Shown here: positions 8,436 through 40,008 of the stretch, one piece after another
Layout of the letters: each line of letters starts with the position of its first letter
Position numbering within the stretch: the stretch's first letter is position 1
DNA from: a virus
Virus record (IMG/VR): IMGVR_UViG_3300032285_000779
Span: 1-48,677 of that record
Direction: 5' to 3' (one strand)
Length of the DNA stretch: 48,677 nucleotides
The notes under the pieces: generated by a model
Told to the model about the DNA's origin: nothing
Database searches by the model: none
The model's input: the letters and a program-made list of their open reading frames with translations, nothing else
Made by a program: the position numbers and the translations under genes

Positions 8436-8469
8436 TTGCTTCTCCTTGATGGTTTAGTTGCCATCTTTA

Positions 8470-8502
8470 CCCCCTGCGTTAATAGCGCCGGGGGTTTTTT
8501 TT
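8470..8502 (+). terminator. Rho-independent terminator, plus-strand direction
   Basis: CCCCC-T-GCG (8470-8478) pairs with CGC-C-GGGGG (8486-8494) around a 7-base loop with one T-C mismatch, followed by eight T. It would stop rightward transcription just before the divergent control region. On the minus strand the same stem includes the AGGGGG that would be the ribosome site for the ATG at 8464. Confidence 0.7.
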
Positions 8503-8542
8503 GTCCCTCGGTTTTTCCAAATTTTTATAAAATTTTTTAGGG

Positions 8543-8562
8543 CACTGTGTTTTTAAACAGTG
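8543..8562. promoter_or_regulatory. LexA-like SOS box
   Basis: CACTGT-N8-ACAGTG is a perfect 6-base inverted repeat whose core is CTGT-N8-ACAG with an AT-rich centre (GTTTTTAA). This equals the Gram-negative LexA consensus. It lies in the divergent region just upstream of an AT-rich minus-strand promoter-like tract. Binding is inferred. Confidence 0.5.
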
Positions 8563-8718
8563 GGGGGTACTTCGGATTTTTTAAAATTTGATTTGCGGGT
8601 ATGGAACAGTGTTCACACCACGTGGAGGGGTGCATGGTCAAAAAGGGGTCGTGGGGGATGGGTGGGGTTCAGCCGTTCAGCTTTCCAGTCATTGTCAAGG
8701 GTATTTAGAAACGGATTG

Positions 8719-8734
8719 TGGTATACTAGATGCA
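8719..8734 (+). promoter_or_regulatory. Extended -10 promoter for the early operon
   Basis: TGGTATACT (8719-8727) matches the extended -10 form TGnTATAAT at all but one position. There is no good -35 at 16-18 bases, as is allowed for extended -10 promoters. The predicted transcript start is near 8734, the first base of a hairpin. Confidence 0.6.
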
Positions 8735-8787
8735 TCGATTGGGAGTTCCAGTCGATAGGTTGCCTCGCCCGTCTGCGAGGCTTTTTT
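8734..8787 (+). ncRNA. Two-hairpin leader RNA with intrinsic terminator
   Basis: Starting at the predicted transcript start, ATCGA-T-TGG (8734-8742) pairs with CCA-G-TCGAT (8748-8756) around a 5-base loop. GCCTCGC (8762-8768) then pairs with GCGAGGC (8775-8781), followed by six T. The second hairpin is a textbook intrinsic terminator placed before the first early gene. The leader may therefore be an attenuator, a short ncRNA, or an RNA-based antitermination site. Which of these applies cannot be told from sequence. Confidence 0.5.
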
Positions 8788-8803
8788 ATTTGGAGTCGTC
8801 ATC

Positions 8804-9440: not shown

Positions 9441-9641
9441 ATGAGCAACAAGAACAAACACTATGCCCTGCACCAAATGCGCGAACTGCGTAAAGACTTC
9501 GTTGCCATGCGCGACCAATGGGAGAAAGACCCACGCGCAGTCATGCAACGCAAGGCACAACTACGCGCACAACTTGCCGAGGAATCCATGCAAGAGTGGG
9601 AGACCATCAAGCGCGAATCCAAACAACTTCGCCTCCTCTAA
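9441..9641 (+). CDS. Small basic helical protein (66 aa), unknown
   Basis: A 66-aa, highly charged protein that is almost entirely helix-forming (REL, KDF, MRDQWEKDPRAVMQRKAQL, EESMQEWETIKRESK). It may form a coiled coil or bind nucleic acid. It starts with a GGAG site in the end of the membrane-protein gene and ends a few bases before a GCGGACA hairpin. No family recognised. Confidence 0.6.
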   Translation: MSNKNKHYALHQMRELRKDFVAMRDQWEKDPRAVMQRKAQLRAQLAEESMQEWETIKRESKQLRLL

Positions 9642-9644
9642 CTC

Positions 9645-9661
9645 GCGGACAACTTGTCCGC
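9645..9661 (+). repeat. GCGGACA hairpin copy 3
   Basis: GCGGACA-ACT-TGTCCGC, a 7-bp perfect stem preceded by AACTC as in copies 4 and 5. It lies just after the stop of the gene at 9441. Confidence 0.7.
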
Positions 9662-9717
9662 CACCATCTCTCCACAACTTGTTGTGGAGAAGTACAAAAA
9701 GTGTTGTTTTTTTACAC

Positions 9718-9974
9718 ATACCCACCACTTTACACAAGTGGACACCCACATGGGTATCGCGCAACCCGCGTGGATACTAGCGGTAACAGTCCACTGGTCC
9801 ACAATACCCATATATATAAATACCTTTTTCATTTAGATATATATATCTGTATGTTCGTGGGTATGTATTCTTTTCTTTGTTTTCAAGTTTGCCTTAGTGT
9901 TCTTGAAAAATGGTGGGTATCTTGGTCGAGGATAGTTAAAATGTCAGTGTTCATGCGGCTTTTCACATACCCAC
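9718..9974. repeat. Six ATACCCA/TGGGTAT iterons
   Basis: ATACCCA occurs on the plus strand at 9718, 9804 and 9967, and as TGGGTAT at 9751, 9858 and 9914. Most copies extend to ATACCCAC/GTGGGTAT. Successive distances are 33, 53, 54, 56 and 53 bases, close to whole helical turns, so the sites would face the same side of the DNA. An AT-rich segment lies between copies 3 and 4. This is the pattern of an initiator or regulator binding array. Confidence 0.6.
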
Positions 9975-9999
9975 TACAAGTGGACCACCTTGTAGACTG

Positions 10000-10032
10000 G
10001 TGGGCCAGTTACAAAACCAAGTGGGCCAGTTA
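10000..10032 (+). repeat. 12-base direct repeat before the Zn-ribbon gene
   Basis: GTGGGCCAGTTA occurs at 10000-10011 and 10021-10032, 21 bases apart (two helical turns), directly upstream of the ribosome site for the gene at 10056. Likely a tandem protein-binding site. Confidence 0.55.
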
Positions 10033-10055
10033 GCCCCAAACTATAAGGAGAAAGT

Positions 10056-10733
10056 ATGCAAATTAAAAATTGCACCAAGTGCGGCGAGTCACACGACATC
10101 GCCCAATTCAGGTACCTTGCCACGCTAGCGCAGACAAAGAAGTGGGGCAAGGCAGGCAATGTGCGCATGGAAGTGGAGTCGAAGTACTGCAAGAACTGCA
10201 GACCCAAACGCAAACCACCCTCTCAACTCAGCGCCAAAGAGATACACAACCGCGTGCAATCGGGCGACATGAGTGAGTACACCGCCAAGATGTTGCGTGC
10301 CAAGCTAGCCCGAGACGAGCGCAACAAGCAGGCGATGGCGGCACGCAAGCGATGGGAGAAGGTGTGGAGTGCCGAGCTCAAGGAAGTACTCAAGCCCATC
10401 GCCAAGGAAATCATCAGCGCCCGCAACACATGGCACTACGCCAGAGACAAGGGCTATGTCGACAAGGCGGTGTTCTATCACGAGTACATGGGGCTACTGA
10501 TTCACGAGAAAACCCACGCCGACATGAACTACGCCATCAAACCGCGCCGTCCCTCATCCTCAAGGTGGGCGGACTACATACATCCAAATGTATTCACAAG
10601 GGTCAGAGAGATGTGGGCACTCCTGCCCCCGAGTTTCAAGCACTCACACATACCACTGCTAATTAAATACCGCCCCGATGGGGCTCAACTCGCGGACAGT
10701 TTGTCCGCAACAACTCAAGGAGAAAGCAAATGA
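10056..10733 (+). CDS. Zinc-ribbon protein (225 aa), unknown
   Basis: A 225-aa basic protein. The N-terminus has CTKC (C6, C9) and a second pair in YCKNC (C45, C48), spacing that fits a zinc ribbon. A long basic helical region (about 60-115) and an aromatic C-terminal domain follow. The start has AAGGAGAAAG. Its last codons read through hairpin copy 4, so that repeat adds a short tail to the protein. It overlaps the next gene by ATGA. A nucleic-acid-binding role is likely. Lying just downstream of the iteron array, it is a candidate partner for it, but that is inference. Confidence 0.7.
   Translation: MQIKNCTKCGESHDIAQFRYLATLAQTKKWGKAGNVRMEVESKYCKNCRPKRKPPSQLSAKEIHNRVQSGDMSEYTAKMLRAKLARDERNKQAMAARKRWEKVWSAELKEVLKPIAKEIISARNTWHYARDKGYVDKAVFYHEYMGLLIHEKTHADMNYAIKPRRPSSSRWADYIHPNVFTRVREMWALLPPSFKHSHIPLLIKYRPDGAQLADSLSATTQGESK
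10692..10708 (+). repeat. GCGGACA hairpin copy 4
   Basis: GCGGACA-GTT-TGTCCGC in the last codons of the gene at 10056, just before the AAGGAG of the next gene. Confidence 0.7.
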
Positions 10734-13742: not shown

Positions 13743-14945
13743 ATGAGCTATGAGAAGATGACTCTCAATCAAAGAGTCCAAGCCGCCAACATTGACTGTA
13801 TGCGGCACCCCAAGTTCGCCTTGCTGTCAGGCGTCATCATGCTAGGTAAGAGCGAGGTGTCAGACAAGATACCAACAGCCGCGACCAATGGTCGTGACAA
13901 GAAGTATGGCGTTGACTTCATCACCCCGCTCACACGCAAGCAGATGCGCTACCTCGTACTGCACGAGAACTTCCATGTCGCACTCAAGCACTGCATCTTG
14001 TTCAAGCAGTACACACGCAAGATGCCCAAGCTCACCAACATGGCGCAGGACTATGTGGTCAACGCACTCATCGAAGAGATGGACCCCGAGTTCAAGTTCG
14101 TCGAGCGTCCTACTGAGTCGTTGCTCATTGACCGCAAGTACTTCGGTTGGTCGTTCCCACAAGTTCTCAATGACCTCATCAAGCAAGGCAAGCAAGAGCC
14201 TCAGAGTGGCGAGGGTGATGGCGAGGGCGGTGGTGACTTCGACGAGCCGCTCGATGCACATGAGGATGGTGAGTTCGACGACAACCCCATCGAGCAAGAC
14301 AAGCTTGGCAAGCAGATCGACGATGCCAACAGACAGGGCGAGATACTTGCACGCAAGCTCGCGGGTAAGGAAGCAGGCGGTCGTGACATACTCGGTACAG
14401 CCAAGGAACGCACGACTGACTGGAAGCAAGCGCTTCAAGAGTGGATTAGTTCTATCTCTGCGGGCGATGACAACTCACGCTTCTGTCCCCCCAACAAACG
14501 CTTGCTCGCATCGGGCTTCGTTATGCCATCACACTTCACTGAGTCAGTCGGTGAACTCATCCTCGCTGTCGACACATCGGGCTCTATGTATCCTTATTAC
14601 AGGTTACTCTTTGGCGAGATCGCTCGCATCTGCAACATCACCAAGCCTGCGGGTGTGCGTGTGCTTTGGTGGGACACTGCTGTGTGTGGCGACCAACAGT
14701 TCAAGCCTGCTGACTACGAGCAGATCACATCACTCATGAGTCCCAAGGGTGGTGGCGGCACAACTCCCGATGTAGTCGTTGACTATATTCGTGAGCACAA
14801 GATCGACGCCAAGGCGATCGTCTGGTTAACAGATGGTTACCTCGGTTGCGATACCCCCAATACCCCAATGCCATCTTTGTGGGGTGTGGTAGAGAACGAG
14901 TCATTCGTTCCTACTCATGGCAAAGTCCTGCGTATTTCTGTTTAA
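13743..14945 (+). CDS. VWA-like protein with metallopeptidase-like N-domain (DUF2201 type)
   Basis: A 400-aa protein in two domains. The N-terminus (about 1-140) has LHENFHVALKH, a zincin HExxH motif (H74-H78), as in the putative metallopeptidase domain DUF2201_N. A very acidic linker (155-190) follows. The C-terminal VWA domain has an intact MIDAS: DTSGSM (277-282), a Thr in GGGGTTPD (337-343) and LTDG (D364). VWA proteins of this kind partner with MoxR AAA+ ATPases, and one is encoded 26 bases downstream. The pair could be a metal-dependent protein-remodelling machine. An AGGAG site sets the start. Whether it is a peptidase is unproven. Confidence 0.82.
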   Translation: MSYEKMTLNQRVQAANIDCMRHPKFALLSGVIMLGKSEVSDKIPTAATNGRDKKYGVDFITPLTRKQMRYLVLHENFHVALKHCILFKQYTRKMPKLTNMAQDYVVNALIEEMDPEFKFVERPTESLLIDRKYFGWSFPQVLNDLIKQGKQEPQSGEGDGEGGGDFDEPLDAHEDGEFDDNPIEQDKLGKQIDDANRQGEILARKLAGKEAGGRDILGTAKERTTDWKQALQEWISSISAGDDNSRFCPPNKRLLASGFVMPSHFTESVGELILAVDTSGSMYPYYRLLFGEIARICNITKPAGVRVLWWDTAVCGDQQFKPADYEQITSLMSPKGGGGTTPDVVVDYIREHKIDAKAIVWLTDGYLGCDTPNTPMPSLWGVVENESFVPTHGKVLRISV

Positions 14946-14971
14946 TCTTTTAACTTTTGGAGAACCATATC

Positions 14972-16096
14972 ATGAACAACTTTTTATCTGCACAACAAGT
15001 ATTGAACCTCATCGCCGCTATCGGTGACAAGCGCACAGTTATCGTGGAGGGTGAGAACGGCATCGGCAAGACTGCGCTCTTCCATGCCCTGCGTAAGCTA
15101 CCCAAGTTCGCCAATCACATCGCAGTCAAGCCAGTCGATTGCACGCAGTTGTCTGACGGCTCGGTGTGGATGCCCGACCTTGATCGTGAGAACGGCATCT
15201 CTCGCGAGTTACCCAACGAGCGCTTCGGTGTCAGTGCCAACAACCAACTCGGTGTCAACAACTCCAAGCCAATCATTGTCATGCTCGACGAGATTGCCAA
15301 GGCACCGCAGTTCATCAAGAATGTTCTTGCGCCTATCGTGTACGAGCGTCGTGTCGGCAACCTTGACATGCCCGAGGGTAGCGTTGTGTTCTGTGCTACC
15401 AATCTATCAGTCGAGGGTCTCGGTGATTCCATCCAAGCGCACTTGCGTAATCGTCTTGTGTTCGTCAAGATGCGTAAGCCTAGCGCTGACGAGTGGGTCA
15501 AGTGGGCTACTGACAATCAGATCAACCCAATGATTATTGCGTTCGTTAGCAACGAGCCACGCGTTATGCAGTCGTTCATGGACTACGAGAAGGGCGGTAT
15601 GTTCGAGGGCAAGGACTTGTCCAAGGACAACGGCTTCATCTTCAACCCCAAGTCTATGCAACTTGCATACGCTACGCCTCGTTCACTTGTTGCGGCCAGT
15701 GACTTACTCGACGCAGGTCTCGGTGTTCTCGACGACGACACACTCGAAGCATCTCTCGTTGGTACTGTGGGCGCTACTACTGCGCAGGCATTGTCATCGT
15801 TCATTCGCTTCGGTCGTGAGATCTGCGAGTACTCGCGTGTCATCAAGTCACCTGACACTGCGCCGCTGTCCGACAACCCTACGGCGCAACTCATTCAGGT
15901 GTTCCAGTTCGTCACCCGTGTGGCCGACCGCACCGAGGCCGAGGCTATCGTCAAGTATGTGTGGCGTATGCGTGCAGAGATGCAGTCGATCTTCTGCAAC
16001 ACAGTGGCAACAAGTCAGCGCGTTGCTATGTTCGCAACCATCAACGAGTTCGGTCGCATGTTAGCCGAGCACAAGATCTTCTTCTCAACCAAGTGA
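14972..16096 (+). CDS. MoxR-type AAA+ ATPase
   Basis: A 374-aa AAA+ protein with Walker A GENGIGKT (27-34), Walker B VMLDE (103-107), sensor-1 ATN (142-144) and a likely arginine finger in LRNR (158-161). This is the order found in MoxR/CobS-like ATPases. It is downstream of the VWA protein, so it probably forms a ring that acts with it on a substrate. I chose the ATG at 14972 because TTGGAG lies 9 bases upstream. An in-frame TTG at 14957 overlaps that ribosome site. The substrate is unknown. Confidence 0.85.
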   Translation: MNNFLSAQQVLNLIAAIGDKRTVIVEGENGIGKTALFHALRKLPKFANHIAVKPVDCTQLSDGSVWMPDLDRENGISRELPNERFGVSANNQLGVNNSKPIIVMLDEIAKAPQFIKNVLAPIVYERRVGNLDMPEGSVVFCATNLSVEGLGDSIQAHLRNRLVFVKMRKPSADEWVKWATDNQINPMIIAFVSNEPRVMQSFMDYEKGGMFEGKDLSKDNGFIFNPKSMQLAYATPRSLVAASDLLDAGLGVLDDDTLEASLVGTVGATTAQALSSFIRFGREICEYSRVIKSPDTAPLSDNPTAQLIQVFQFVTRVADRTEAEAIVKYVWRMRAEMQSIFCNTVATSQRVAMFATINEFGRMLAEHKIFFSTK

Positions 16097-16104
16097 GGTA
16101 ACGC

Positions 16105-16461
16105 ATGGCCAATCGTATCAGCAACCTGATCGCGCGGCTGTGCAAGCCGCACATGTCTGAGCTAGGCAAAGAGCTACTCCCTCTCGTCTATGAGGGGGAG
16201 TGGAAGCTCGACGAGTACAGAATAACGCACAAGGATGCAGGCGTATCGTTTTGGGTAGCGAACGGCTTCAGTCGTTTTCGTTTGTACGACATTAAGGGTT
16301 TGCCTTACCACGATGAGTCGTACAGAGATGCGCTCAACTTTGCTGACAAGTGGGTGTTGTGGACATGCTATCAAAATCTACTAGACAGAATTAGCTTAAA
16401 ACCCGCAGAAGCCGCACTCAACATGGTGCGCATGCACAACATGAAAGGAGAAGTTAAATGA
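16105..16461 (+). CDS. MoxR-operon protein (118 aa), unknown
   Basis: A 118-aa protein, 8 bases after the ATPase stop with a GAGGT site. It has a mixed alpha/beta pattern: a basic helical start, then DEYRITHKDAGVSFWVANGF and a Trp-rich helix (FADKWVLWTCYQNLLDR). It overlaps the next gene by ATGA. It may be an accessory factor for the ATPase/VWA pair by position. No family recognised. Confidence 0.62.
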   Translation: MANRISNLIARLCKPHMSELGKELLPLVYEGEWKLDEYRITHKDAGVSFWVANGFSRFRLYDIKGLPYHDESYRDALNFADKWVLWTCYQNLLDRISLKPAEAALNMVRMHNMKGEVK

Positions 16462-16700
16462 CAGACCCAGTAACAAACTCACTGGCATTACAAACGCAGT
16501 TTGGTGATGATGAATTAAAGAAGGAGATAGACAACCACATCATCGAGCTTGCAATGGCCGCCGCACACCAAGTCGTGCTCAATGCGTTCAACAACCCCGA
16601 GTACTTCAAGCGACTCATTGTCAACAACAACTACGAGTTTGAAACAGCCGTTGCACGCTCGATGAAAAACTTTCTCAACAACCCTCGTAACATTTATTAA
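16458..16700 (+). CDS. MoxR-operon small protein (80 aa), unknown
   Basis: An 80-aa helical protein beginning in an ATGA overlap, with AAAGGAGAAG upstream. It contains KKEIDNHIIELAMAAAHQVV and ends FLNNPRNIY. Mostly amphipathic helices, with no membrane span of normal length. Function unknown, and co-translation with the previous gene is likely. Confidence 0.6.
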   Translation: MTDPVTNSLALQTQFGDDELKKEIDNHIIELAMAAAHQVVLNAFNNPEYFKRLIVNNNYEFETAVARSMKNFLNNPRNIY

Positions 16701-16711
16701 GGAGTCTTATC

Positions 16712-17596
16712 ATGACAACAACTACACCCCGCCACAATATCGACACTTGCGCAATGCTCGTGGAGTTCAACGCTTCTGTGTGGACAGCACGCAAGCTAGA
16801 CAAGTCAACCACCGACGAGGTGGTGGCAAGCAAGAACGCAGGCGCCAAAGATGCCGCGCGTGTTAACAAGCATCTGCTCGCAGGTCGTACCGAGTTGGAT
16901 GTCATCCAACAAGCAGTCAGCCGCGCTCGTCAATTCGTATACGACAACACCGCGCCTTGGTCTGACTCAGGTCTGCGCCTCTTACCTACTGTCAACTTCA
17001 TGAAGTTCACCGAGCGCATGAATGACTTCGAGGAAGAGATGGAGGCCTTGGTCAAGGCGTTCGTTGCAATCTATCCTACGCTCATCACAGCGCAGGCCTT
17101 GGCTCTTGGCGATATGTTCAAGAGAGATGACTACCCCACAGCCAATGAGATCATGACCAAGTTCTCGTTCCGCGTTAACTACATGCCAGTCCCATCATCG
17201 GGTGACTTCCGTGTGGATGTGGGCAACCAAGCACAGGCAGAACTCAAGGCACGCCTTGAATCTCTGACCCAAGAACGCATCGACTCTGCTATGGCAGATG
17301 TGCGTGAAAGACTTAGCACTCACTTAAAGCGTATGTCAGATCGTCTTACGACTGACTATGTGGGCGGTGAAGCTAAGCAACGGCGTTTCCACGACACCCT
17401 TGTCGATGGTGCGCTTGAGTTGTGTGACCTCACTAAGTCATTGAATGTGACAAACGACATGGCTTTAGAGGAAGCACGCAAGCAGTTGGAACAGCTACTC
17501 GTTGGCGTAACACCTGCTGATCTGCGTAAGAACGAGGCCATCCGTCAAGATGTCAAGAAGAATGTCGACGCCATCCTCGACAAGTTCAACTTTTAA
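16712..17596 (+). CDS. DUF3150-like protein of the MoxR/VWA module
   Basis: A 294-aa, largely helical protein. Its N-terminus (LVEFNASVWTARKLD, residues 16-30) resembles the start of DUF3150 proteins, which I recall occurring beside CobS-like ATPases and CobT-like VWA proteins on plasmids and integrative elements. Later parts form long helices (ERMNDFEEEMEALVKAF, RLESLTQERIDSAMADVRE). AAGGAG lies upstream. Its position completes a three-part VWA, AAA+ and DUF3150-like module. The family call rests on N-terminal resemblance and context, so it is moderate. Confidence 0.6.
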   Translation: MTTTTPRHNIDTCAMLVEFNASVWTARKLDKSTTDEVVASKNAGAKDAARVNKHLLAGRTELDVIQQAVSRARQFVYDNTAPWSDSGLRLLPTVNFMKFTERMNDFEEEMEALVKAFVAIYPTLITAQALALGDMFKRDDYPTANEIMTKFSFRVNYMPVPSSGDFRVDVGNQAQAELKARLESLTQERIDSAMADVRERLSTHLKRMSDRLTTDYVGGEAKQRRFHDTLVDGALELCDLTKSLNVTNDMALEEARKQLEQLLVGVTPADLRKNEAIRQDVKKNVDAILDKFNF

Positions 17597-20050: not shown

Positions 20051-20328
20051 GCGAAGGAATGTCACAGAAAGAGTTAGAGCAACGCGTTGCACAGATGTCA
20101 GACGAAGAGCAGGCGCACTTCAAACTTCTCATACACAAGTTGGTGATGTGTTATGGAGAAGGCCAAGCACAAGGCGTAGTCATCATTGGCCGCGCTGAAG
20201 ATTCAATGGCGGGAGTTGTCACCCTGAACTGTGATGAGATGGAGGCGTCGCAACTCATGTTGGCGGCAAACGATTTTTTCGGCTTTTTAAATCTCCTCGA
20301 CGCACCACCAAAGGAGCAATTTAATTGA
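20047..20328 (+). CDS. Unknown protein before DNA polymerase (93 aa)
   Basis: A 93-aa acidic protein with MSQKELEQRVAQMSDEEQAH at its start and a beta-like section GVVIIGRAEDSMAGVVTLNC followed by a helix. The stop TGA is overlapped by the TTG start of the DNA polymerase, and an AAAGGAG site for the polymerase lies in its last codons. Probably co-expressed with the polymerase. Function unknown. Confidence 0.6.
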   Translation: MSEGMSQKELEQRVAQMSDEEQAHFKLLIHKLVMCYGEGQAQGVVIIGRAEDSMAGVVTLNCDEMEASQLMLAANDFFGFLNLLDAPPKEQFN

Positions 20329-22292
20329 GCAAACCATTTGACAGAATACTTATCGTCGATTTTGAAACACGATGGGATAGCAAAGAATACACGCTGTCCA
20401 AGATGACAACAGAGGAGTACGTACGTGACCCAAGATTCAAAGCATTTGGTCTGTGTGCCAAGCTGTTGGGCAGTGACAATGCGCCTGTGTGGGTCAGAGG
20501 GGAATCCATCCAGAGCTGGTGTGACGCTATTGACTGGAGCCGGACTGCGGTGCTTGCGCATAATGCCCAGTTCGACGTATCAATCTTAAGTTGGCGGTAT
20601 GGGGTTGAGCCTGCGTTCATTTTTGATTCTCTCTCCATGGCTCGCGCTCTTCGCGGTGTCGAGGTGGGAAACTCACTGATGAAACTGGCAGATGATTTCG
20701 GTCTGCCACCCAAGGGTCAAGCGGTTCACAACACCAACGGCGTAGAGGAACTCACGCCCGCTATGGAGAAAGAACTAGCAGAGTACTGCAAGCACGATGT
20801 GTTCTTGTGTGAAGAGATCTTTAAGCGCCTGCGTGCAGGCTACCCCGCTAAAGAGCTACGGCTCATCGACATGACGCTCAAGATGTACACGCGTCCGCTG
20901 TTGCAGTTAGACCAACAAATGTTAATCAAGGCACTGGCCGAGGAGGGCACCGCTCGTGAACAACTATTACAAAGGCTCGGCGTGGAAGATGCTGAGTTGG
21001 CATCGAACCCAAAGTTTGCTGAACTACTTACGAAACTGGGCGTTGTTCCGCCTACCAAGACGAGTAAAACCACAGGCAAGACAACGCTTGCCCTCGCGAA
21101 GAACGATGCCCTCTTCCAGACGTTGCTCAACAGTGAACGTGAAGACGTTGCCCTACTTTGTCAAGCGCGTCTTAAGGTTAAATCAACCACTGAACGGACA
21201 CGAGCGCAAAGGTTTCTCGACATTAGCAAACGTGGTGCGCTTCCGGTGCCGCTCTCTTACTATGGAGCACAGACGGGGCGGTGGACGGCGGCCAAAGGCA
21301 GTGCCATTAACATGCAGAACCTCAAGCGAGGTTCATTCTTACGCAAAGCAATTATGGCTCCCGATGGGCACCAACTCGTTGTCGGCGATCTATCGCAGAT
21401 TGAGCCGCGAGTCCTTGCGTGGCTTTCCGACTACGAAGATATGCTTACGATTTTCAGGGCTGGAGGTGACCCTTACGCGGCGTTCGGCAGTCAGATGTTT
21501 AACATCCCCGGTCTCACCAAAGACTCTCATCCGGACTTGCGGCAGTCGGCAAAGAGTGCGCTTCTGGGATGCGGGTATGGACTCGGTTGGGCTTCCTTTG
21601 CGTCCCAACTACTTGTCGGGTTCCTCGGTGCGCCGCCTGTGCGGTATTCGAAAGATTTTGCAAAGAAGCTAGGCGTTGACTCTGAGTATGCGCAAGCGTT
21701 CGTGAAGCTGACTGACATCGACGACAAGCTGATGGAGATACCACACACTTGTTCCACAGAAGATTTGCTGAACCACGCGCTTGCGGCCAAGGCAATCATA
21801 GATACGTATAGGAGAACGGCGTACCCTGTTGTAGCGTTCTGGAGTATGTGTGAAGAAGCGTTACACAGGTCGCTTGTCAATGGTTCAGAACTGGTGTATA
21901 AATGCATCACGTTCCGCAAAGGCGAGATTGAATTGCCCAACGGAATGAAGTTGTTGTACCCTGATCTTCGCTATGAGAAGGACGACAAAGGTAGGAGCCA
22001 AGCAGTGTATGGGCCACACGCTACCAAGTTGTATGCAGGGAAGATAACGAACAACATCACGCAGGCCTTGGCTCGCATTGTGATGACGGATGGTATGTTG
22101 AGGGTCTCAAAGAAGTACCCGATCGCAGGCACAGTACATGACGAGTTGATCGCTGTTGTACCTGACGATGAAGTGGAGGACGCTAAGACTTGGGTCTTGG
22201 CGCAAATGACTATGGAGCCAAGCTATATGCAAGGTATTCCATTGGACGCTGACGGTGGCGCACATCGTAGATATGGGTTAGCTAAAAACTAG
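20325..22292 (+). CDS. Family A DNA polymerase with 3'-5' exonuclease
   Basis: A 655-aa family A polymerase. The 3'-5' exonuclease has VDFETR (D12, E14), AHNAQFD (D84) and YCKHD (Y154, D158). The polymerase has motif A DLSQIE (355-360), motif B R406...K410...Y418-G419 and motif C HDE (605-607). There is no 5'-3' exonuclease domain, as in T7-like polymerases. It begins with TTG, chosen because AAAGGAG lies 8 bases upstream, TTGA overlaps the previous stop, and the exonuclease motif follows closely. It should be the replicative polymerase. Confidence 0.92.
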   Translation: MSKPFDRILIVDFETRWDSKEYTLSKMTTEEYVRDPRFKAFGLCAKLLGSDNAPVWVRGESIQSWCDAIDWSRTAVLAHNAQFDVSILSWRYGVEPAFIFDSLSMARALRGVEVGNSLMKLADDFGLPPKGQAVHNTNGVEELTPAMEKELAEYCKHDVFLCEEIFKRLRAGYPAKELRLIDMTLKMYTRPLLQLDQQMLIKALAEEGTAREQLLQRLGVEDAELASNPKFAELLTKLGVVPPTKTSKTTGKTTLALAKNDALFQTLLNSEREDVALLCQARLKVKSTTERTRAQRFLDISKRGALPVPLSYYGAQTGRWTAAKGSAINMQNLKRGSFLRKAIMAPDGHQLVVGDLSQIEPRVLAWLSDYEDMLTIFRAGGDPYAAFGSQMFNIPGLTKDSHPDLRQSAKSALLGCGYGLGWASFASQLLVGFLGAPPVRYSKDFAKKLGVDSEYAQAFVKLTDIDDKLMEIPHTCSTEDLLNHALAAKAIIDTYRRTAYPVVAFWSMCEEALHRSLVNGSELVYKCITFRKGEIELPNGMKLLYPDLRYEKDDKGRSQAVYGPHATKLYAGKITNNITQALARIVMTDGMLRVSKKYPIAGTVHDELIAVVPDDEVEDAKTWVLAQMTMEPSYMQGIPLDADGGAHRRYGLAKN

Positions 22293-24451: not shown

Positions 24452-24780
24452 GCACATTGAAATACAAAGCTACTGAGCGATACGATTTCGGTTGGACTGA
24501 CCCGCGAGCAACGTTCGGCGTTATAAAAGTAAACCAAAGAAGGCACACAGGACTTGAAGAAGTCTCGACCGAAGTGTTGCGCAACTTGTGGTTGGTGCGG
24601 TTTGGTGAGCTCTATGTGGATGCTAAGTTGATGCACGACACACGCGCCGAAGACATTGCAGATGTTGTACAAGAGTTGGCAAACCGAGGATACGTGCGCC
24701 AAGAAATGACAAGAAGCATGTATGCCGAAAAACCCATATCTCGGTTCAGATTACTGGAAAAACAAAATGCAAATCGTTGA
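24448..24780 (+). CDS. NLW-domain paralog 3, with capsid-like N-terminus (110 aa)
   Basis: A 110-aa protein started by GTG in a GTGA overlap, with GAAGGAGG upstream. Residues 6-24 (YKATERYDFGWTDPRATFG) match residues 287-305 of the major capsid protein at 12 of 19 positions. The codons differ widely, so this is not a recent DNA duplication. NLWLVRFGELYVD (46-58) links it to the two preceding genes. It ends 14 bases inside the helicase start. A capsid-tail mimic, decoy or capsid-assembly regulator are possibilities, and none is shown. Confidence 0.72.
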   Translation: MSTLKYKATERYDFGWTDPRATFGVIKVNQRRHTGLEEVSTEVLRNLWLVRFGELYVDAKLMHDTRAEDIADVVQELANRGYVRQEMTRSMYAEKPISRFRLLEKQNANR

Positions 24781-26329
24781 AGACAAAGCGCTCGTACTGC
24801 GCACACGCAACCCACACAAGTACGCAATTATTCCGAAGCACAAAGTTCTTTCCGAGGACAACGGCATCTATGAAGTAGCTGTGTACTGGGGTCTTGATGA
24901 AGCACGAGTGCTACGCAACCTCGGTGTAAAAGATGTGCCGTCGCCTATCACTAGGCGCTATGACTGGCCCGGAAAGTTTATACCAATGGCTCACCAAAAA
25001 GAGACGTCGGCTTTCCTCACACTTAACCGCAGAGCGTTCTGTTTTAATGACCCCGGAACTGGCAAAACATTATCAGCACTATGGGCGGCTGACTTCTTGA
25101 TGAAGCGCGGTGAAGTTCGTCGTGTGTTGATTCTCTGCCCACTGTCTATTATGCACAGCGCATGGATGGGCGACATCAACCGAAGCGTGATACACAGAAG
25201 CGCCATTGTCGCCCACCATACGCAAGCCTCGCGGCGTATTGAAATGATTCAGCAGGACTACGAGATTGTGATTGCCAACTACGATGGCCTCAACTTGATT
25301 GCTTCTGAGATCAACGCAGATGGTAGGTTTGACTTAGTGATTGTTGATGAAGCCAACGCGTATAAGAACCCGTCTACTCGTAGATGGAAAACACTTGCGT
25401 CAATCATCAAGCCTGAAACATATTTGTGGATGATGACTGGTACGCCTGCATCACAGTCGCCTGTGGATGCGTACGGCTTAGCAAAGTTTGTAAACCCAAG
25501 CGGTGTGCCTAAGTTCCAGACATCATGGCGCGACAAGGTGATGAACAAGATCAGCCTGTTCAAGTGGTCACCAAAGGCCAACGCTAAAGACCTCGTGTTT
25601 GAAGCACTGCAACCCGCAATACGTTTTACAAAAGACCAGTGCCTCGACTTGCCACCAGTCATCACAGTCACACGCGAAGTGCCGATGACACCACAGCAGG
25701 CCAAGTACTACAAGCTACTCAAAGAGCAAATGCTTTTCCAAGCGGCGGGTGAAACAATCAGCGCAGTCAATGCGGGCGTTGCTGTAAACAAGTTGCTACA
25801 AATAAGTTGTGGTGCCGCATACACAGACGAGAAAGAAGTTGTGGAGTTCGATGCCGCGCCTCGTCTTGGTGTACTAGAAGAAGTGTTGGAAGAGACAAAC
25901 CGCAAGGTAATTATCTTTGCGCTGTTCCGCTCAAGCATTGACACCATCGTCACATATCTCACTAAACACGGCTATGCCGTTGACCAGATTCATGGCGACG
26001 TGTCTGCAACAAAGCGCGGGCAGATCATCAATGACTTTCAAACAACTGACAACATCCGTGTGTTGGTGTTGCAACCACAAGCGACAGCCCACGGGATTAC
26101 CCTAACTGCCGCTGACACAGTTGTCTTCTTTGGTCCACTAATGTCTGTTGAGATGTATACGCAGTGCATAGCACGAGCAGACCGCAAAGGTCAAGACTCA
26201 GACAAGGTCACTGTGGTGCATATTGAATCAAGTCCCATCGAGAAGAAATTATTTAAGGCAATGAATACAAAAGTTTCTGACCACGCTTTGCTTGTCGGCA
26301 TGTTCGACAGTGAAGTAAAAAATATTTAA
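24767..26329 (+). CDS. SNF2-like DNA helicase / translocase
   Basis: A 520-aa superfamily 2 ATPase. It shows AHQ (Q-motif-like, about 75-77), Walker A NDPGTGKT (94-101), DEAN (194-197), TGTP (224-227), a second RecA domain, and motif VI ARADRKGQ (about 469-476), the SNF2-like arginine-finger pattern. It probably unwinds or remodels DNA during phage replication or recombination. The ATG at 24767 is preferred over the in-frame ATG at 24722, because GGAAAAA lies upstream and the overlap with the previous gene is only 14 bases. Confidence 0.88.
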   Translation: MQIVEDKALVLRTRNPHKYAIIPKHKVLSEDNGIYEVAVYWGLDEARVLRNLGVKDVPSPITRRYDWPGKFIPMAHQKETSAFLTLNRRAFCFNDPGTGKTLSALWAADFLMKRGEVRRVLILCPLSIMHSAWMGDINRSVIHRSAIVAHHTQASRRIEMIQQDYEIVIANYDGLNLIASEINADGRFDLVIVDEANAYKNPSTRRWKTLASIIKPETYLWMMTGTPASQSPVDAYGLAKFVNPSGVPKFQTSWRDKVMNKISLFKWSPKANAKDLVFEALQPAIRFTKDQCLDLPPVITVTREVPMTPQQAKYYKLLKEQMLFQAAGETISAVNAGVAVNKLLQISCGAAYTDEKEVVEFDAAPRLGVLEEVLEETNRKVIIFALFRSSIDTIVTYLTKHGYAVDQIHGDVSATKRGQIINDFQTTDNIRVLVLQPQATAHGITLTAADTVVFFGPLMSVEMYTQCIARADRKGQDSDKVTVVHIESSPIEKKLFKAMNTKVSDHALLVGMFDSEVKNI

Positions 26330-28347: not shown

Positions 28348-31269
28348 ATGACATCCGCTGAATTTTTAGCGGTGGTTTTGCCGTCCGAAGGCTTCGGCCT
28401 GTACTGCGCGGTAGAACTCACAAAGAAAAAAGAACATGTATATGCAGACAAGATTGAAGACCTCATCCCGACGATCGAGCAGTGGCATGCCAACCAGTAC
28501 GACGTCTTCTATGGCGTAGCCACATTCGACACGAAGCGCGGCGCTGAAGAAGCTCAGTACCTCAAGGCGTTCTTTGTTGACTTGGATGGGTACGCCACCA
28601 AGAAGGCGGCGGCTGATGCGTTGATTCAGTTCCTCCAGAAGTCTGGGCTTGACGCTCTTGGTACGCCATGGGTGGTTGACTCAGGCGGTGGCTTGCACTG
28701 CTACTGGCCGCTCAAGGATGAGATTCCTGCGGCTGTTTGGAAACCTGTTGCTGAGAACTTAAAGCGTCTGTGCAAACAGGAAGGCTTCACCATTGACATG
28801 GGCGTGACTGCTGACACCGCTCGTATCTTGCGCGTGCCCGGAACTGCCAACAACAAAAAGAAGTACGCAACGCCGCGCCCTGTGCGCATAGTCCAAGAGG
28901 GCGACATTTTTGACTTCTCGACTTTCTCGCCACTTGTTTATGAGAAGTTGGAGGAGATACCTGCACCTCCTGCGCCCAAGATAAACCTGCCCGGCCAACG
29001 CCCATCCGCGCCCACACGCGGTCAGGTCAAGTTGATTCAGGACAGCTTCACGCTGTTTGGGAACTTTGAGAACCAGTGCGGTCAGATTCAAGACTACATC
29101 GCCACAGCAACGGACGACGGCAAGGAGCCCATCTGGCGCGGCATACTGTCTTGGGCCAAGGTCTGTGAGGACGGCGCAGAGAAGGCTGTCTGGCTCTCGG
29201 ATATGCACCCATACCCACACGAGCGCATGCACCAGAAGATGGCTGACATCAAGGGTCCCTATGCCTGCGTAAAGATGGACAGCGAGAATCCCGGCATCTG
29301 TACGAAGTGCAAGCACTGGGGCAAGATAACCAACCCCTTGATTCTTGGGCGCGAGATCAAGACGGACAACACCGCCAAAGAGATCATGCTCTCAACGCCG
29401 CCCGACGAAGACTTTGACGAAACGCTTCTGGACACAGAAGAATCGTATGAGCCAGAAGATACGGGTTTACCCTTAGCCCCTAGCATTGTGCGTCCTGTGC
29501 CACCACGCGGATACAGCTACGGCGAACATGGCGGCGTCTATTGCGTGCGCATGGAGGAGGACGAGGAAGGTAAGAAGTCCAAGAAGAGTATTCAGCTTGT
29601 TCCCTACGATTTGTTTGTGGTTGACATCCTGAAAATGGAGGACGACCACCTGATTCACATGGCCGCTGTGCGTCCCGAAGGCGTGCAGACTTTGAACTTC
29701 CCACAGAAATCTATTGTCAGCAAGGACGAGACGCTCAAGTGTTTGGCCAGTCAGAACATCGTCAGCACCTTTGCAGGTCACGACAAGACGCTGTTTGAGT
29801 ATGTGCGTGCATGCGTGGGCGAGGCTTCTCAGAACCGCAGGCCGATCGAGGTGCCGTTTCAATGTGGATGGCAGGCAGACCAGTCGTTTGTTTACAACAA
29901 CCGCGTGTTCAGTAAAGATGGGCGCGAGACTCGCATCCCCATGCCCGGTCTGGAGAACATTAACCGCAACACCAACGGCAAAGGCGACCTTGATACATGG
30001 CGGCATATGTGGAAGACGATCTTCGTTGAGAAGCCGGGTATGGAGACAGCCTTGGCTGTGGCTCTGGATTCCTTTGGATCACCGCTTATGCGCTTCACAG
30101 AGTTTGAAGGCTTTGTCTGGCACATCGGTTCGCAGTGGTCAGGTACGGGTAAATCCCTAGTACTTAGCGCCAAGGCAGGCGTGTGGGGTCACCCACTACG
30201 CTACCGCACAGGCAAGAGTACATCACCTGTTGCTATGCAACAACGCGCAGGTTTGCTCAACAGCATGCCGCTTCTGATTGACGAGATCACCAGCACACAG
30301 CGCAACAACATGGAATGGGCGCCTGCCTTTATCTTTGATTACTCAGAGGCACAAGGCAAAGAGCGTATGGAGTCAGGCTCCAACAAAGAGCGTATCAACA
30401 ACAGTACATGGACAGCCACCTGCACGATGACGTCCAACACAAAGCTAACTGACTACATGGCGGGGGCACGAGCCCACAGCTCCAACGGCGAGCTTCTGCG
30501 GATGCTTGAGTGGACGCCCCACATCAAGCTGAAGTTCACACCTGAAGAACGCGTGACGCTTCTTGAGATCAAGCGCAACTACGGCGTGGCCGGTGAGGCA
30601 TGGGTGCGATGGCTGACAGTTAATCAAAAGGTTGCAGAAGACATTGTGCACAAGACCCACGCGCACTTAAAGAAGGTCCTGAACTTCAACGACGACGAGC
30701 GCTACTGGCACGCAGGCTGTACTGTGGTTGTGGCGTCAGCTATCCTCTTGCGCAAAGAGTACGCAGGCATCATAGAAGTTGAGATCAACAAGGTCATCAG
30801 CGCTCTGAAAGGACTTGTGGAGAAAGCTCGTGGCGTCATGAAGAACAGCGTGCGCTCTGCTGAAGATGTGCTCAACGCCTACATCGGCGACAACTACGGA
30901 AGCTTTATTGTTCTGAAGAAAGTCGAGGGCAAAATCTTGGCAGCATGGGGAGACAACGGCGACATCGTTGACCGCTCGACCACCAAGAGCAAGGTGCTCG
31001 GCAGGGTGGAGCATGGCATCCTAGCGCCGGGGTACAGGGAGTTTTACATCGAGGAGCAGTTGTTGAAGAAGCATTGCGTGAGCATGAGCTTTGGATACGA
31101 TGAGTTCAAGGCGCAGATGGAGGAGTTGTTCACTTGCAAGTACGTCAAGAAAGACATGCTGTCACGAACCAACGGCCCGACCATGCGCGTCAATGCCATG
31201 CACATAACTTTTAGGGACGAAGTCTTCGATGGAAATACTGTATCCGTGGGCGAAGCTAAAGCCGGGTGA
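28348..31269 (+). CDS. Primase-helicase (AEP-like primase fused to DUF927-type ATPase)
   Basis: A 973-aa two-domain replication protein. The N-terminus resembles archaeo-eukaryotic primase/RepB-like domains: FFVDLDG (D78, D80), VVDSGGGLHCYW (H117) and TARILRVPGT (about 157-166). A cysteine-rich hinge follows (C307, C318, C321). The C-terminal half (about 400-850) resembles DUF927 helicases, with Walker A SGTGKS (about 596-602) and Walker B LLIDE (642-646). It should prime and unwind DNA for the family A polymerase. No separate DnaB- or T7-like primase is present. The ATG has AAAGGAC upstream. Confidence 0.85.
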   Translation: MTSAEFLAVVLPSEGFGLYCAVELTKKKEHVYADKIEDLIPTIEQWHANQYDVFYGVATFDTKRGAEEAQYLKAFFVDLDGYATKKAAADALIQFLQKSGLDALGTPWVVDSGGGLHCYWPLKDEIPAAVWKPVAENLKRLCKQEGFTIDMGVTADTARILRVPGTANNKKKYATPRPVRIVQEGDIFDFSTFSPLVYEKLEEIPAPPAPKINLPGQRPSAPTRGQVKLIQDSFTLFGNFENQCGQIQDYIATATDDGKEPIWRGILSWAKVCEDGAEKAVWLSDMHPYPHERMHQKMADIKGPYACVKMDSENPGICTKCKHWGKITNPLILGREIKTDNTAKEIMLSTPPDEDFDETLLDTEESYEPEDTGLPLAPSIVRPVPPRGYSYGEHGGVYCVRMEEDEEGKKSKKSIQLVPYDLFVVDILKMEDDHLIHMAAVRPEGVQTLNFPQKSIVSKDETLKCLASQNIVSTFAGHDKTLFEYVRACVGEASQNRRPIEVPFQCGWQADQSFVYNNRVFSKDGRETRIPMPGLENINRNTNGKGDLDTWRHMWKTIFVEKPGMETALAVALDSFGSPLMRFTEFEGFVWHIGSQWSGTGKSLVLSAKAGVWGHPLRYRTGKSTSPVAMQQRAGLLNSMPLLIDEITSTQRNNMEWAPAFIFDYSEAQGKERMESGSNKERINNSTWTATCTMTSNTKLTDYMAGARAHSSNGELLRMLEWTPHIKLKFTPEERVTLLEIKRNYGVAGEAWVRWLTVNQKVAEDIVHKTHAHLKKVLNFNDDERYWHAGCTVVVASAILLRKEYAGIIEVEINKVISALKGLVEKARGVMKNSVRSAEDVLNAYIGDNYGSFIVLKKVEGKILAAWGDNGDIVDRSTTKSKVLGRVEHGILAPGYREFYIEEQLLKKHCVSMSFGYDEFKAQMEELFTCKYVKKDMLSRTNGPTMRVNAMHITFRDEVFDGNTVSVGEAKAG

Positions 31270-31447
31270 GGGCTTCTTTGTTCCGGGGCTAGACGTTGAG
31301 ATGGTGAGGGAGTTGGGCTTACGTGCCGCTCTCCCCCACCGAATCAATGCGCAGGCTGTCGTGGGTATCAGGAAGAACCAATTAGGCGTATGGTTTTATC
31401 GGAAATTTCCCGCGTCGTATTTGCAAGCGCAATCTTCATCTTCCTGA
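31229..31447 (+). CDS. Small conserved phage protein (72 aa), convergent overlap
   Basis: A 72-aa protein beginning MEILYPWAKLKPGEGFFVPG, with ELGLRAALPHR and GVWFYRK. I recognise this pattern from a small family in other phages (FFVP...RELGLRAA), which supports it despite the odd location. It overlaps the primase end by 41 bases and runs 80 bases head-on into the 3' end of the giant minus-strand gene. It is the last plus-strand gene. Function unknown. Confidence 0.65.
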   Translation: MEILYPWAKLKPGEGFFVPGLDVEMVRELGLRAALPHRINAQAVVGIRKNQLGVWFYRKFPASYLQAQSSSS

Positions 31448-34400
31448 TGTCGTCAAGTTGTTTACGCTTGGCTTCAGGAGACAGACTAGATGCGGCAATA
31501 GCTCGCTCGGCTTGCGTCAGCTTGTTCATATTGGCTTTGAACTTGTCGCCCAGTTCGGCCTCCATGTACTCGTTGCCGCGCTTGGTCAGCAAGGCTTGAG
31601 CTTCCTGAGTTTTGCCCTCATGCATCAGTGTGCGCACAGTGATACGCACACGCTCGTCTTCATTCATGCGCATGTAGACTGAGTTGATGATGCCGCCTGC
31701 GTCGTTGGGTTGGAACGCACCGCCCACGATTGGGTACTCAGACAAGCGCTTGACTGCCTGCTCTGGTGTCTCTTTTGCAGGTACGCCAAGGCTGATCGCG
31801 TGTAGGAACGCCAGACCCATTGTGCCTGTGTAGCCGTTGACGATTGCCTCCATCTTGATGGGGGACAAGCCAAATGTTTTACCAACCAGCTTAGCCATCT
31901 CAGATGTATTAGCGCGGTACTGTTCTTCAGGCAACAGCTTCTTCTCACGCTCAGACAGAATGTCGCGGCCTGTGTAGAACGACTTCTCAAGCGCCGCCTC
32001 AACGGTTGGCTTGATGGCTTGAGGCAAAGGAATCAGCGTAGGAATCTTGAGGCCGTTGCCAATGTCGATAGTGGGCATGCTCGTGCCGCCCGGCAAGGTC
32101 TGAATCAAGATCTGGTTAAACGCTTGAACTGCTTCCTCACTGCCATGCTTCTGAGTCATGCTGTTGTACAGCGCCTCGGGAATAGCCTTGAAGATGTAGC
32201 CAATCTCAAACGGCACAGGAATCTTCAGCGGCTCGTCCAGACCGGGCACGCGTATAAACCAGTTGCCATACTTCTGATCGGGCGTAGCGTTCTTGTAGGC
32301 TTCGTCGTCCTGCATCGCCATGGCGTAGAGAATAGAAGCCGCCGCCATCATGCCGCCGCGCATCAACAATTTCTCACGAATACGCAGTTGGTCGTTGAAC
32401 GGCATCTTTCCTGCCAACGCCTTGTACAAAACATTCAAGCCCTGAATCTGTGCGTTGAAGAAAGGAATCAATGCGTTGGCTACGTGGATGCTTGGAGATG
32501 CGCCGCGCTTGTTAAAGTTCATGGACTCCAAAGACATCAGCGTAGCTTCCATCTCAGACAGCCCTTGCTCAATATAACTGTTGTACTGAGCACGTCGTGT
32601 GAGCGCGTCAGCCTCCATACCCAAAGCTTCAAATTTACCCAACGCTTTCATCCATCCGGACTGGCCATCAGTAATGTCACGCAGAATCTTGGACAAGTCC
32701 TCGCTTGTACCTTTGAACTGCTGACCACCAACAATGCCGCGTTTCTCCAAAGTTTCTTTGGCAGTGCCGTTTATTTCTTTCAAGGCGCCAATGATAGGCA
32801 TGAAGTCAGCGCCAGACATAATCGGTGCGGCCAACGAATCACGGAACAATTGCTTGGCCATGTACAAGGGGCTCAGCGTCACAGCCTTACGCAAACCTTG
32901 CGCGGGAAGCGCCATGGCACGCAACAGGAACGGCATCTGTGTTGGGATACCCTCCATACCCTTGACCAAGATGTCAGCAGGCACGCCTGTCTCAAACTCC
33001 TTGTTGCCGATCTTCACTTTTTCTGTGTGAATAATCGCGTAACGGTCATCGCCGTCTACTTTAAATTTGACAACGTCTGCGCCTTCGGCCTTTTTAACCA
33101 ACGTGGCGGACTTCAGATCAAGTAGTTCCATGACTGCGTTTTTGGTTGCAAGGTTACGCATGCCCATGTCCACCAACATGTTGGTGTTCTGCACCGAGCT
33201 GGTCATGAAGTCAAGGATGGCTGTGTCACCGCCAACCAACTCTTTCAAGTAAGGCTGATCTGCAATACTGCCAATACGAACAGGGCTCTCGTTGCCGATC
33301 ACCAACTCGACGACGCCTTTGCGCTCACGATAGAACGGAATGTAATCGTCCTGCGCCACCAAGCGTTTCACAAGTTCTTTAGACAAAGCGCCTGTGCTGG
33401 CCACAAAGTCCAACATGTCGCGGTTGTACTGGTTGTACTCTTTGCGTGCGGCTTCAAAGATGTACTTTAACTCGGGGTTGCTCTTGACCAGTGCAGTTAC
33501 GCGGTCAAGCATTTCTTGTGTCAACACAGGTTTGCCGTTGGCGTCTGTGCCAAAGTTAAGCGTCTCAATACCTTTGTTAGCGGCACGAATAGCGGCCATG
33601 TATGTTGTAAAGGCTTGGTTGACAGCTTCGCCGTTACCAATATATTGCTTGGCATCTTTCAGTGTGTTCACAATACTGCCGAGGTTGGCTCCGCCTGAAG
33701 TCTCAACCACACGCTCAATGCGTCCATCGCTGCGGGTAATTTCCTTGATGGCAGGAGCACCGTCAGCCACAGCCTTAGACACAATGTTCATGCGTTGGTC
33801 ATATGTGCGCAGGTAGTACAACATCTGCGTACCGGCAAGCCTGTCCATGTATTTGGCTAAACGCTCAAAGCCTGCAAAGCGGTCAACAAGCTGTGTCTCA
33901 AACGCAAGGCCGGTTGTGTTGGCTTTGATTGAATCAAATATCGTACGCTTTTGCGCCACCACACGGCTGATAACGTCACCTATCTTTGCGAAGTCCTCGT
34001 TGTAGACAGGCTCTTGATACGCCAAGGACTCACTTTTCAAATCTTGGATTGGCTTGTTGTTCTCGTACAACTCAGCTTTGGTGTAAGCCAAAATTTCTTC
34101 TGTCAGCGCCACAGACTCTGCAAACAAAGACTGGGCAGCCTTAGCAGGCATGTCAAAAAACTGCGACATGATCTCCACAAAACGCGTGAAGATGCTCTTG
34201 CGTGGTTTATCCGAAGGGATTTCGGTCAGCAGTTTTTGGAAGTCGCGGTTGGCAAACAACTCAGCAATAAACTCGTGCTCGTTCTTTAGCGCGTAGATTG
34301 ACTGGCGTGTCCGAGCCAAACCCATACCGTGCTGACGGAAGTACGCTTTGCCTTCTTTGGTTTCAAGCCAATCAATTGTTTTTGTGCGCAGTTCATTGAC

Positions 34401-39950: not shown

Positions 39951-39980
39951 AGTATTCCTAATTGTGCGGCTGGAGATAAT

Positions 39981-40008
39981 CACCCATGCAGGCCGAGCTA
40001 CATGGGTG
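39981..40008 (-). other. Hairpin between virion genes
   Basis: CACCCATG (39981-39988) and CATGGGTG (40001-40008) form a perfect 8-bp inverted repeat around a 12-base loop, in the 66-base gap between the transglycosylase and the giant gene. There is no T run in either direction, so it is not a normal terminator. It may be an RNA-processing or protein-binding site. Confidence 0.5.

Follow-up and report, generated by a model that had tools for sequence, protein, structure and literature searches.

What role does a gene-free stretch of 414 bp play in an uncultured virus, when it carries six copies of the heptamer ATACCCA and lies at the head of the replication genes? The stretch (9642-10055) is part of a window, the whole DNA analyzed here, which is a single virus record, 48,677 bases long and lacking end repeats. 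A preliminary description, made from the letters alone, had presented the array as a candidate replication origin or master operator; this class remains the best one, now on the basis of comparison between genomes, but the exact ATACCCA array has turned out not to be the conserved core.

Genomic setting

The genes for terminase and portal point leftward, starting at 8464, and the replication genes extend rightward up to 31269, among them those for PolA (20325-22292), a SNF2-type helicase (24722-26329), and a primase/helicase with DUF927 (28348-31269). The named terminases most similar to that of the window, at about 50% identity, are those of the Pelagibacter phages HTVC027P and HTVC023P and of phage DSL-LC04. 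The relative G002 has 65,655 bases, and its two ends abut inside the window sequence, which indicates that G002 is circular by assembly and that the window is incomplete. Elsewhere in the window, genes for DUF2201 (VWA-like), a MoxR-like ATPase, and DUF3150 are clustered at 13743-17596, likewise in MinM2; an ORF of 2871 residues at 31368-39983 carries an LPD38 domain, and the heptamer TGCTCAA occurs at 43700-43950, with up to 14 copies per ~400 bp, within a 953-residue ORF that has an extensin-like proline-rich stretch.

The ATACCCA array

The six copies of ATACCCA lie in both orientations, at 9718(+), 9751(-), 9804(+), 9858(-), 9914(-), and 9967(+), and the gaps first reported for them, of 33, 53, 54, 56, and 53 bp, are correct. 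The six-copy array is beyond chance: when 9642-10055 was dinucleotide-shuffled 1000 times, the highest copy number of any heptamer was five, seen once. A count over the whole window, which had been proposed as a check, gives 13 occurrences versus 2.7 expected from dinucleotide shuffles, clustered at the array. For the regular spacing of 53-56 bp, the probability of four such gaps is P ~1e-4, in a test chosen post hoc. The suggestion that the sites share one helical face fails, since the vector strength at 10.5 bp per turn is 0.18, a value that random placements reach in 84% of cases; only a fitted period of 10.85 gives a vector strength of 0.93 (P 0.015). Equal helical phasing was thus dropped as evidence.

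The surroundings of the array are as initially described. Its AT-rich center (9811-9846) lies inside the 100 bp with the highest AT content in the window, a Zn-ribbon gene at 10056 follows directly, and the 414-base stretch is non-coding, the mechanical ORF at 9518-10033 being devoid of codon periodicity (P 0.69). An open frame crosses the leader in 13 of 28 distinct leaders, and all 27 distinct leaders of relatives bear an indel not divisible by three; the absence of codon periodicity and the frameshifting indels led to the rejection of a coding stretch. The features are as follows, with A sites given in the TGGGTAT reading and counts taken from the distinct leaders:

9645..9661, + strand: hairpin GCGGACA/TGTCCGC, following the stop codon of gene 9441-9641
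9669..9690, + strand: hairpin TCTCCACAAC/GTTGTGGAGA, almost unchanged among close relatives
9696..9713, + strand: AAAAGTGTTGT and a T tract, kept in close relatives and also in the distant G020
9718..9725, - strand: A site 1 (GTGGGTAT), 28/28
9751..9757, + strand: A site 2 (TGGGTAT), GGGYRT in 27/28
9763..9782, + strand: B element copy 1, one mismatch relative to AACCCGCATRRAYAYTRGCG
9804..9810, - strand: A site 3, TRGGTATT in 26/28
9811..9846, no strand: AT-rich imperfect dyad TATATATAAA-N14-AGATATATATAT, ~36 bp, the most deeply conserved core
9858..9864, + strand: A site 4, TGGGTGTG in 23/28
9914..9920, + strand: A site 5, TGGGTAT in 18/28 and TAGGTAT in 10/28
9942..9961, - strand: B element copy 2, inverted, three mismatches relative to AACCCGCATRRAYAYTRGCG
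9967..9974, - strand: A site 6, exact in only 2/28
10000..10032, + strand: two GTGGGCCAGTTA repeats, 21 bp apart, immediately 5' of the ribosome site of 10056
10056..10733, + strand: gene next to the module; Zn-ribbon subtype of a family that neighbors the module in 67/77 loci

In the alignment, relatives bear alternative perfect hairpins at 9645..9661, including GTGGAGAATTCTCCAC and GTGGTCAAATGACCAC, which indicates that the hairpin is kept there and not its sequence; in some relatives the GTGGGCCAGTTA repeats are swapped for GTGGGTATGCTC. The hairpin GCGGACA..TGTCCGC also recurs intergenically in the window, at about 9180, 9645, 10690, and 11105.

Conservation in close relatives

A profile of the 10056 protein identified 36 loci which, together with the window, provide 37 leaders, 28 of them distinct. 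The non-coding leader is 79-82% identical to those of four relatives, compared with 52-67% identity at third codon positions in the genes on either side. Exact ATACCCA is present at site 1 in 28/28 distinct leaders and at site 5 in 18/28, and at sites 2, 3, 4, and 6 in two of the 28 each, the remainder being mostly transition variants; the complete six-site array occurs in the window, in L009 (identical), and in L010, and is thus a local form. The spacing of the sites, whose retention in related phages had been put forward as a check, survives there owing to the scarcity of indels, whereas the exact heptamer has often disappeared. ATACCCA occurs 1.58 times per 410 bp in the Zn-type modules of relatives versus 0.045 in the rest.

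A conserved module with an AT dyad and a B element

Sequence comparison indicates that the conserved unit is a non-coding module of ~400 bp, shared by a large group of uncultured phages whose terminases are related. Its parts are the AT dyad, one or two copies of the 20-bp B element, TGTCC(A) repeats, and GTGGGT[AG] sites, which correspond to the array repeat. A deep search seeded by the primase-helicase yielded 115 relatives, of which 80 were kept. TATATATAAA-N-AGATATATATAT lies near the small terminase gene both in G020, whose 10056 homologue is ~29% identical, and in G014, whose primase-helicase is 46% identical; a whole-leader search of 18 primase-helicase records matched only these two and, weakly and over 37 bases, G015. 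The core pattern, used as a query, matched 68 stretches; the majority come from TerL relatives and have the core at the corresponding position, and many of those beyond the close relatives have a TerL identity of 74-84% and a core located between the small terminase (TerS) gene and a 10056-like gene. TerL reaches only 36-37% in L224, L228, and L232, and the matches in L211, L215, L218, L226, and L229 resemble unrelated AT-rich DNA. The AT core ranks first for AT content among 100-bp stretches in the window, G001, G002, and G005, and third in G003.

The B element (AACCCGCATRRAYAYTRGCG) occurs in the window at 9763(+) and, as an inverted and weaker copy, at 9942(-); in L195-type phages it is found at -46(+) and +121(-) relative to the core. 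A scan for B alone recovered at least 120 stretches, and the matches listed (80) include 62 new loci, namely 49 relatives, three of which (L246, L268, and L277) were placed mainly by module likeness, and 13 loci without window homologues. Among the matches listed, the 40-mer with the highest AT content in the fetched DNA is no more than 250 bp away from B in all 49 relatives (3.3 expected) and in four of the 13 others (1.1 expected). B17, a shortened B, is present 0.94-1.00 times per module versus 0.000-0.002 per 410 bp elsewhere; TGTCC is also enriched in modules, and TGTCCA occurs 1.8-2.1 times versus ~0.3 elsewhere. These comparisons indicate that the deep core is the AT dyad plus the 20-bp B element, and not the exact ATACCCA array.

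Exact B copies were also seen in contigs without window homologues (L273, L294, L240, L247, and L259 type), some of them beside integrase genes or just 5' of promoter-like DNA; copies of this kind may represent chance or a host-related site. Single-strand folding of the AT core is unremarkable (z -1.5), and no known RNA family matched the stretch. Searches of genome contigs, by 10056 protein profile or by B plus core, revealed no host or prophage copies, and among named phages no relatives of the 10056 protein, the leader, or the B element were found; the partial records of DSL-LC04, HTVC027P, HTVC023P, and MinM2 gave no core-like match and, for B, a single match with four mismatches. A literature term search returned no paper combining all the module features sought, papers with B-like letters were, judged by title, not on phages, and a term search of the literature on HTVC023P and HTVC027P did not detect the wording origin, non-coding, or intergenic.

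The protein encoded beside the module

In nearly all of 26 mapped representatives, the module occupies a gene-free stretch with a small gene on one side and, on the other, a rightward-reading gene of ~175-360 residues that starts 0.2-0.3 kb from the core; for L235, L254, and L276, where the automatic gene caller took other frames, the right gene was read from the sequence. The neighbors form one family with two subtypes, with or without an N-terminal Zn ribbon (assigned via the cysteine-spacing pattern), which share an LTPNELHNRL-like segment followed by a W-containing segment. The family profile, an HMM made from 23 of the loci that were later searched with it, matches in 67 of 77 loci; the ten misses comprise five loci with the module at the contig or locus end and five distant contigs (L197, L224, L228, L230, and L232).

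Structure prediction gives confident models (pLDDT 86 and 91) of the neighbor proteins, made largely of helices. At an E value of 0.001, fold searches found no match for the Zn form in the PDB or a viral library, nor for the non-Zn form in the PDB, and no DNA-binding fold was recognized in the searches of both forms. A second comparison gave only middling helical matches (best Z 7.1), and the fold is thus neither identified nor shown to be new; Pfam, PHROGs, and NCBIfam provided weak matches only. As for the gene itself, the 10056 frame (225 residues) crosses an intergenic hairpin at 10674-10733, and in several relatives the match ends at residue 208-209 or a stop lies within 10674-10733.

Repeat sites and the Zn ribbon

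Of the distinct modules, 24 of 31 with a Zn-type neighbor (mean 2.2) contain GTGGGT[AG], versus 3 of 22 others (mean 0.14), with a background of 0.12-0.13 per 410 bp outside modules (Fisher P 5e-6, kinship ignored); the B element is present in 29/31 Zn and 20/22 non-Zn modules. The Zn genomes without such sites are L194, L204, L242, L246, L265, L270, and L287. Kinship was considered through a careful TerL tree of 40 rows, built without the long-branched L257 and after dropping rows of fewer than 250 residues (8 of 49), on which the Zn label requires eight changes and a Zn clade is rejected (AU P 9e-8). Seven independent, supported pairs have one member of each Zn type; the presence of sites goes with the ribbon in five of them, against it in none, and is the same in two, with a median sign-test P of 0.06, which is above 0.05; a two-site threshold gives 3.8 pairs that follow, 0 that oppose, and 3.2 without difference (P 0.125), and a quick TerL tree that includes L257 gives five pairs, 3.5 of them concordant. 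The comparisons show the module itself, its conservation, its motifs, its fixed gene neighbor, and the manner in which GTGGGTAT sites parallel the Zn ribbon. It is likely that the 10056 product reads at least the GTGGGTAT sites.

A candidate replication origin

We favor the reading, at about an even chance of being correct, that a tailed phage with a circularly permuted genome starts replication in the 414-bp stretch and encodes the cognate binding protein of this origin in the neighboring gene. One or more proteins would bind the 20-bp B elements on either side, the TGTCC(A) repeats and, in Zn-ribbon genomes, the GTGGGTAT sites; once bound, they would fold and strain the DNA so that the AT-rich dyad melts, after which the primase-helicase (28348-31269), PolA (20325-22292), and partners would load. 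Binding, melting, and initiation at the module are steps that we infer. The stretch holds several short specific repeats within a non-coding control region and, as far as sequence can indicate, an adjacent AT-rich unwinding element; it does not have the helix-phased iterons of the plasmid type, and with a vector strength of 0.18 at 10.5 bp it is not filed as a plasmid-type iteron origin. Its repeats in both orientations, AT dyad, position at the head of the operon, and dedicated protein match the general plan of iteron origins (PMC5043065 and PMC7466680).

Two further tests bear on such a function. Boxes for DnaA and IHF are not enriched in the module. Raw GC-skew profiles, suggested initially as a check for an origin, reveal no switch at the array, and in circular G002 the detrended skew has its minimum at 4158, 1.8 kb apart from the core of the module at 5927, on a curve that is flat from ~60 to 17 kb, a stretch that includes the gene-strand switch.

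Specificity cassettes of lambda-type origins are exchanged between phages; the iteron plasmids P1, F, and RK2 have an initiator gene near the origin, and the P4 origin is served by the alpha primase-helicase and combines repeats with an AT-rich segment. The module resembles lambda-type origins in its short repeats beside an AT-rich element, in the candidate binding-protein gene at the origin, and in the exchange of cassettes. In lambda-type origins, however, the O iterons and AT-rich region lie inside gene O, whereas the module lies outside the gene; unlike in lambda, 20-bp B elements flank the AT dyad on both sides, and the motifs and protein have no match to those tested. With P4 it has in common repeats together with an AT-rich segment, and a primase-helicase that the phage itself encodes in the same operon, although a search of solved structures with the primase-helicase found no relative that would link it to P4 alpha. 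The lambda origin carries four iterons and those of Stx phages six (PMC7466680, in part). Repeats plus an AT-rich DUE, the logic described for iteron origins, are common to the module and to P1, F, and RK2; plasmid iterons are mostly direct and helically phased, unlike the module sites, which lie in both orientations and have no common phase at 10.5 bp (PMC5043065, in part).

A broader claim, which we advance tentatively, is that the module represents a new origin system, in which the B/AT dyad and iterons are read by a previously undescribed, adjacently encoded protein family and are swapped as cassettes, gain or loss of the Zn ribbon setting the iteron (GTGGGTAT or not).

Alternative functions

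The module could also be an early-gene control region, in which operators for the 10056 product or a host factor govern transcription running into the replication operon, with the AT dyad as an unusual type of promoter. This would fit its place directly 5' of one gene family, in constant orientation among mapped representatives, the tracking of the Zn ribbon of the adjacent gene's product by the A sites, and the 21-bp repeats immediately before the 10056 ribosome site. In 53 distinct modules, however, sigma-70-like scores equal those of shuffles in both directions, and an extended -10 appears in 5/53 modules versus a rightward one in 17/46 TerS-g8804 intergenic regions; with -35/-10 elements not above chance, a sigma-70 promoter in the module was rejected. 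Operators, moreover, do not need AT richness at a fixed place, which is the module's most extreme property, and we regard such a control region as rather unlikely. The divergent intergenic region at 8465-8803 has a conserved rightward extended -10 (TGTGGTATACTAG), with a terminator-like hairpin (GCCTCG..CGAGGC-TTTTTT) between it and gene 8804, and is probably an early promoter with an attenuator.

A pac site, where repeats bound by the small terminase would mark the genome for terminase, is improbable. The SPP1 pac site has repeat sets beside the small terminase gene (PMC4737164, in part), and the module likewise lies near such a gene, at a distance of 1.2-1.3 kb. The Zn label requires only three changes on a TerS tree, versus eight on TerL, so that small-terminase type and Zn type are co-inherited; the cassette has been swapped repeatedly between phages, in a block that spans TerS to the 10056-like gene, and A sites could thus be coupled to TerS, but exchange of the whole block also means that co-inheritance is not specific to pac. 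Unlike at SPP1 pac, small genes separate TerS from the module in the window and contig ends are not enriched: five of 63 whole metagenome contigs end within 300 bp of the module, versus 4.6 expected, and genome ends at the module were rejected. Nor does a pac site require an AT dyad this extreme.

A protein-DNA structure of some other type, for instance one for partition or anti-silencing, or a hot spot of recombination at which cassettes are swapped, would suit the repeated cassette exchange between phages and the exact B copies in 13 loci without window homologues (among the matches listed), two of them beside integrase genes, but it is most doubtful, as no ParA/ParB-like or recombinase genes were recognized among the scanned proteins near the window module and the 13 B loci may be partly chance (4/13 near the AT maximum).

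Significance

The origins of most uncultured phages are unknown. If the module is an origin, it would provide a sequence signature for origins across a large phage group, and would name an unstudied protein family as candidate initiator. If the reading is true, the presence or absence of the Zn ribbon, together with that of its sites, would represent a natural specificity switch that is testable in vitro without host culture.
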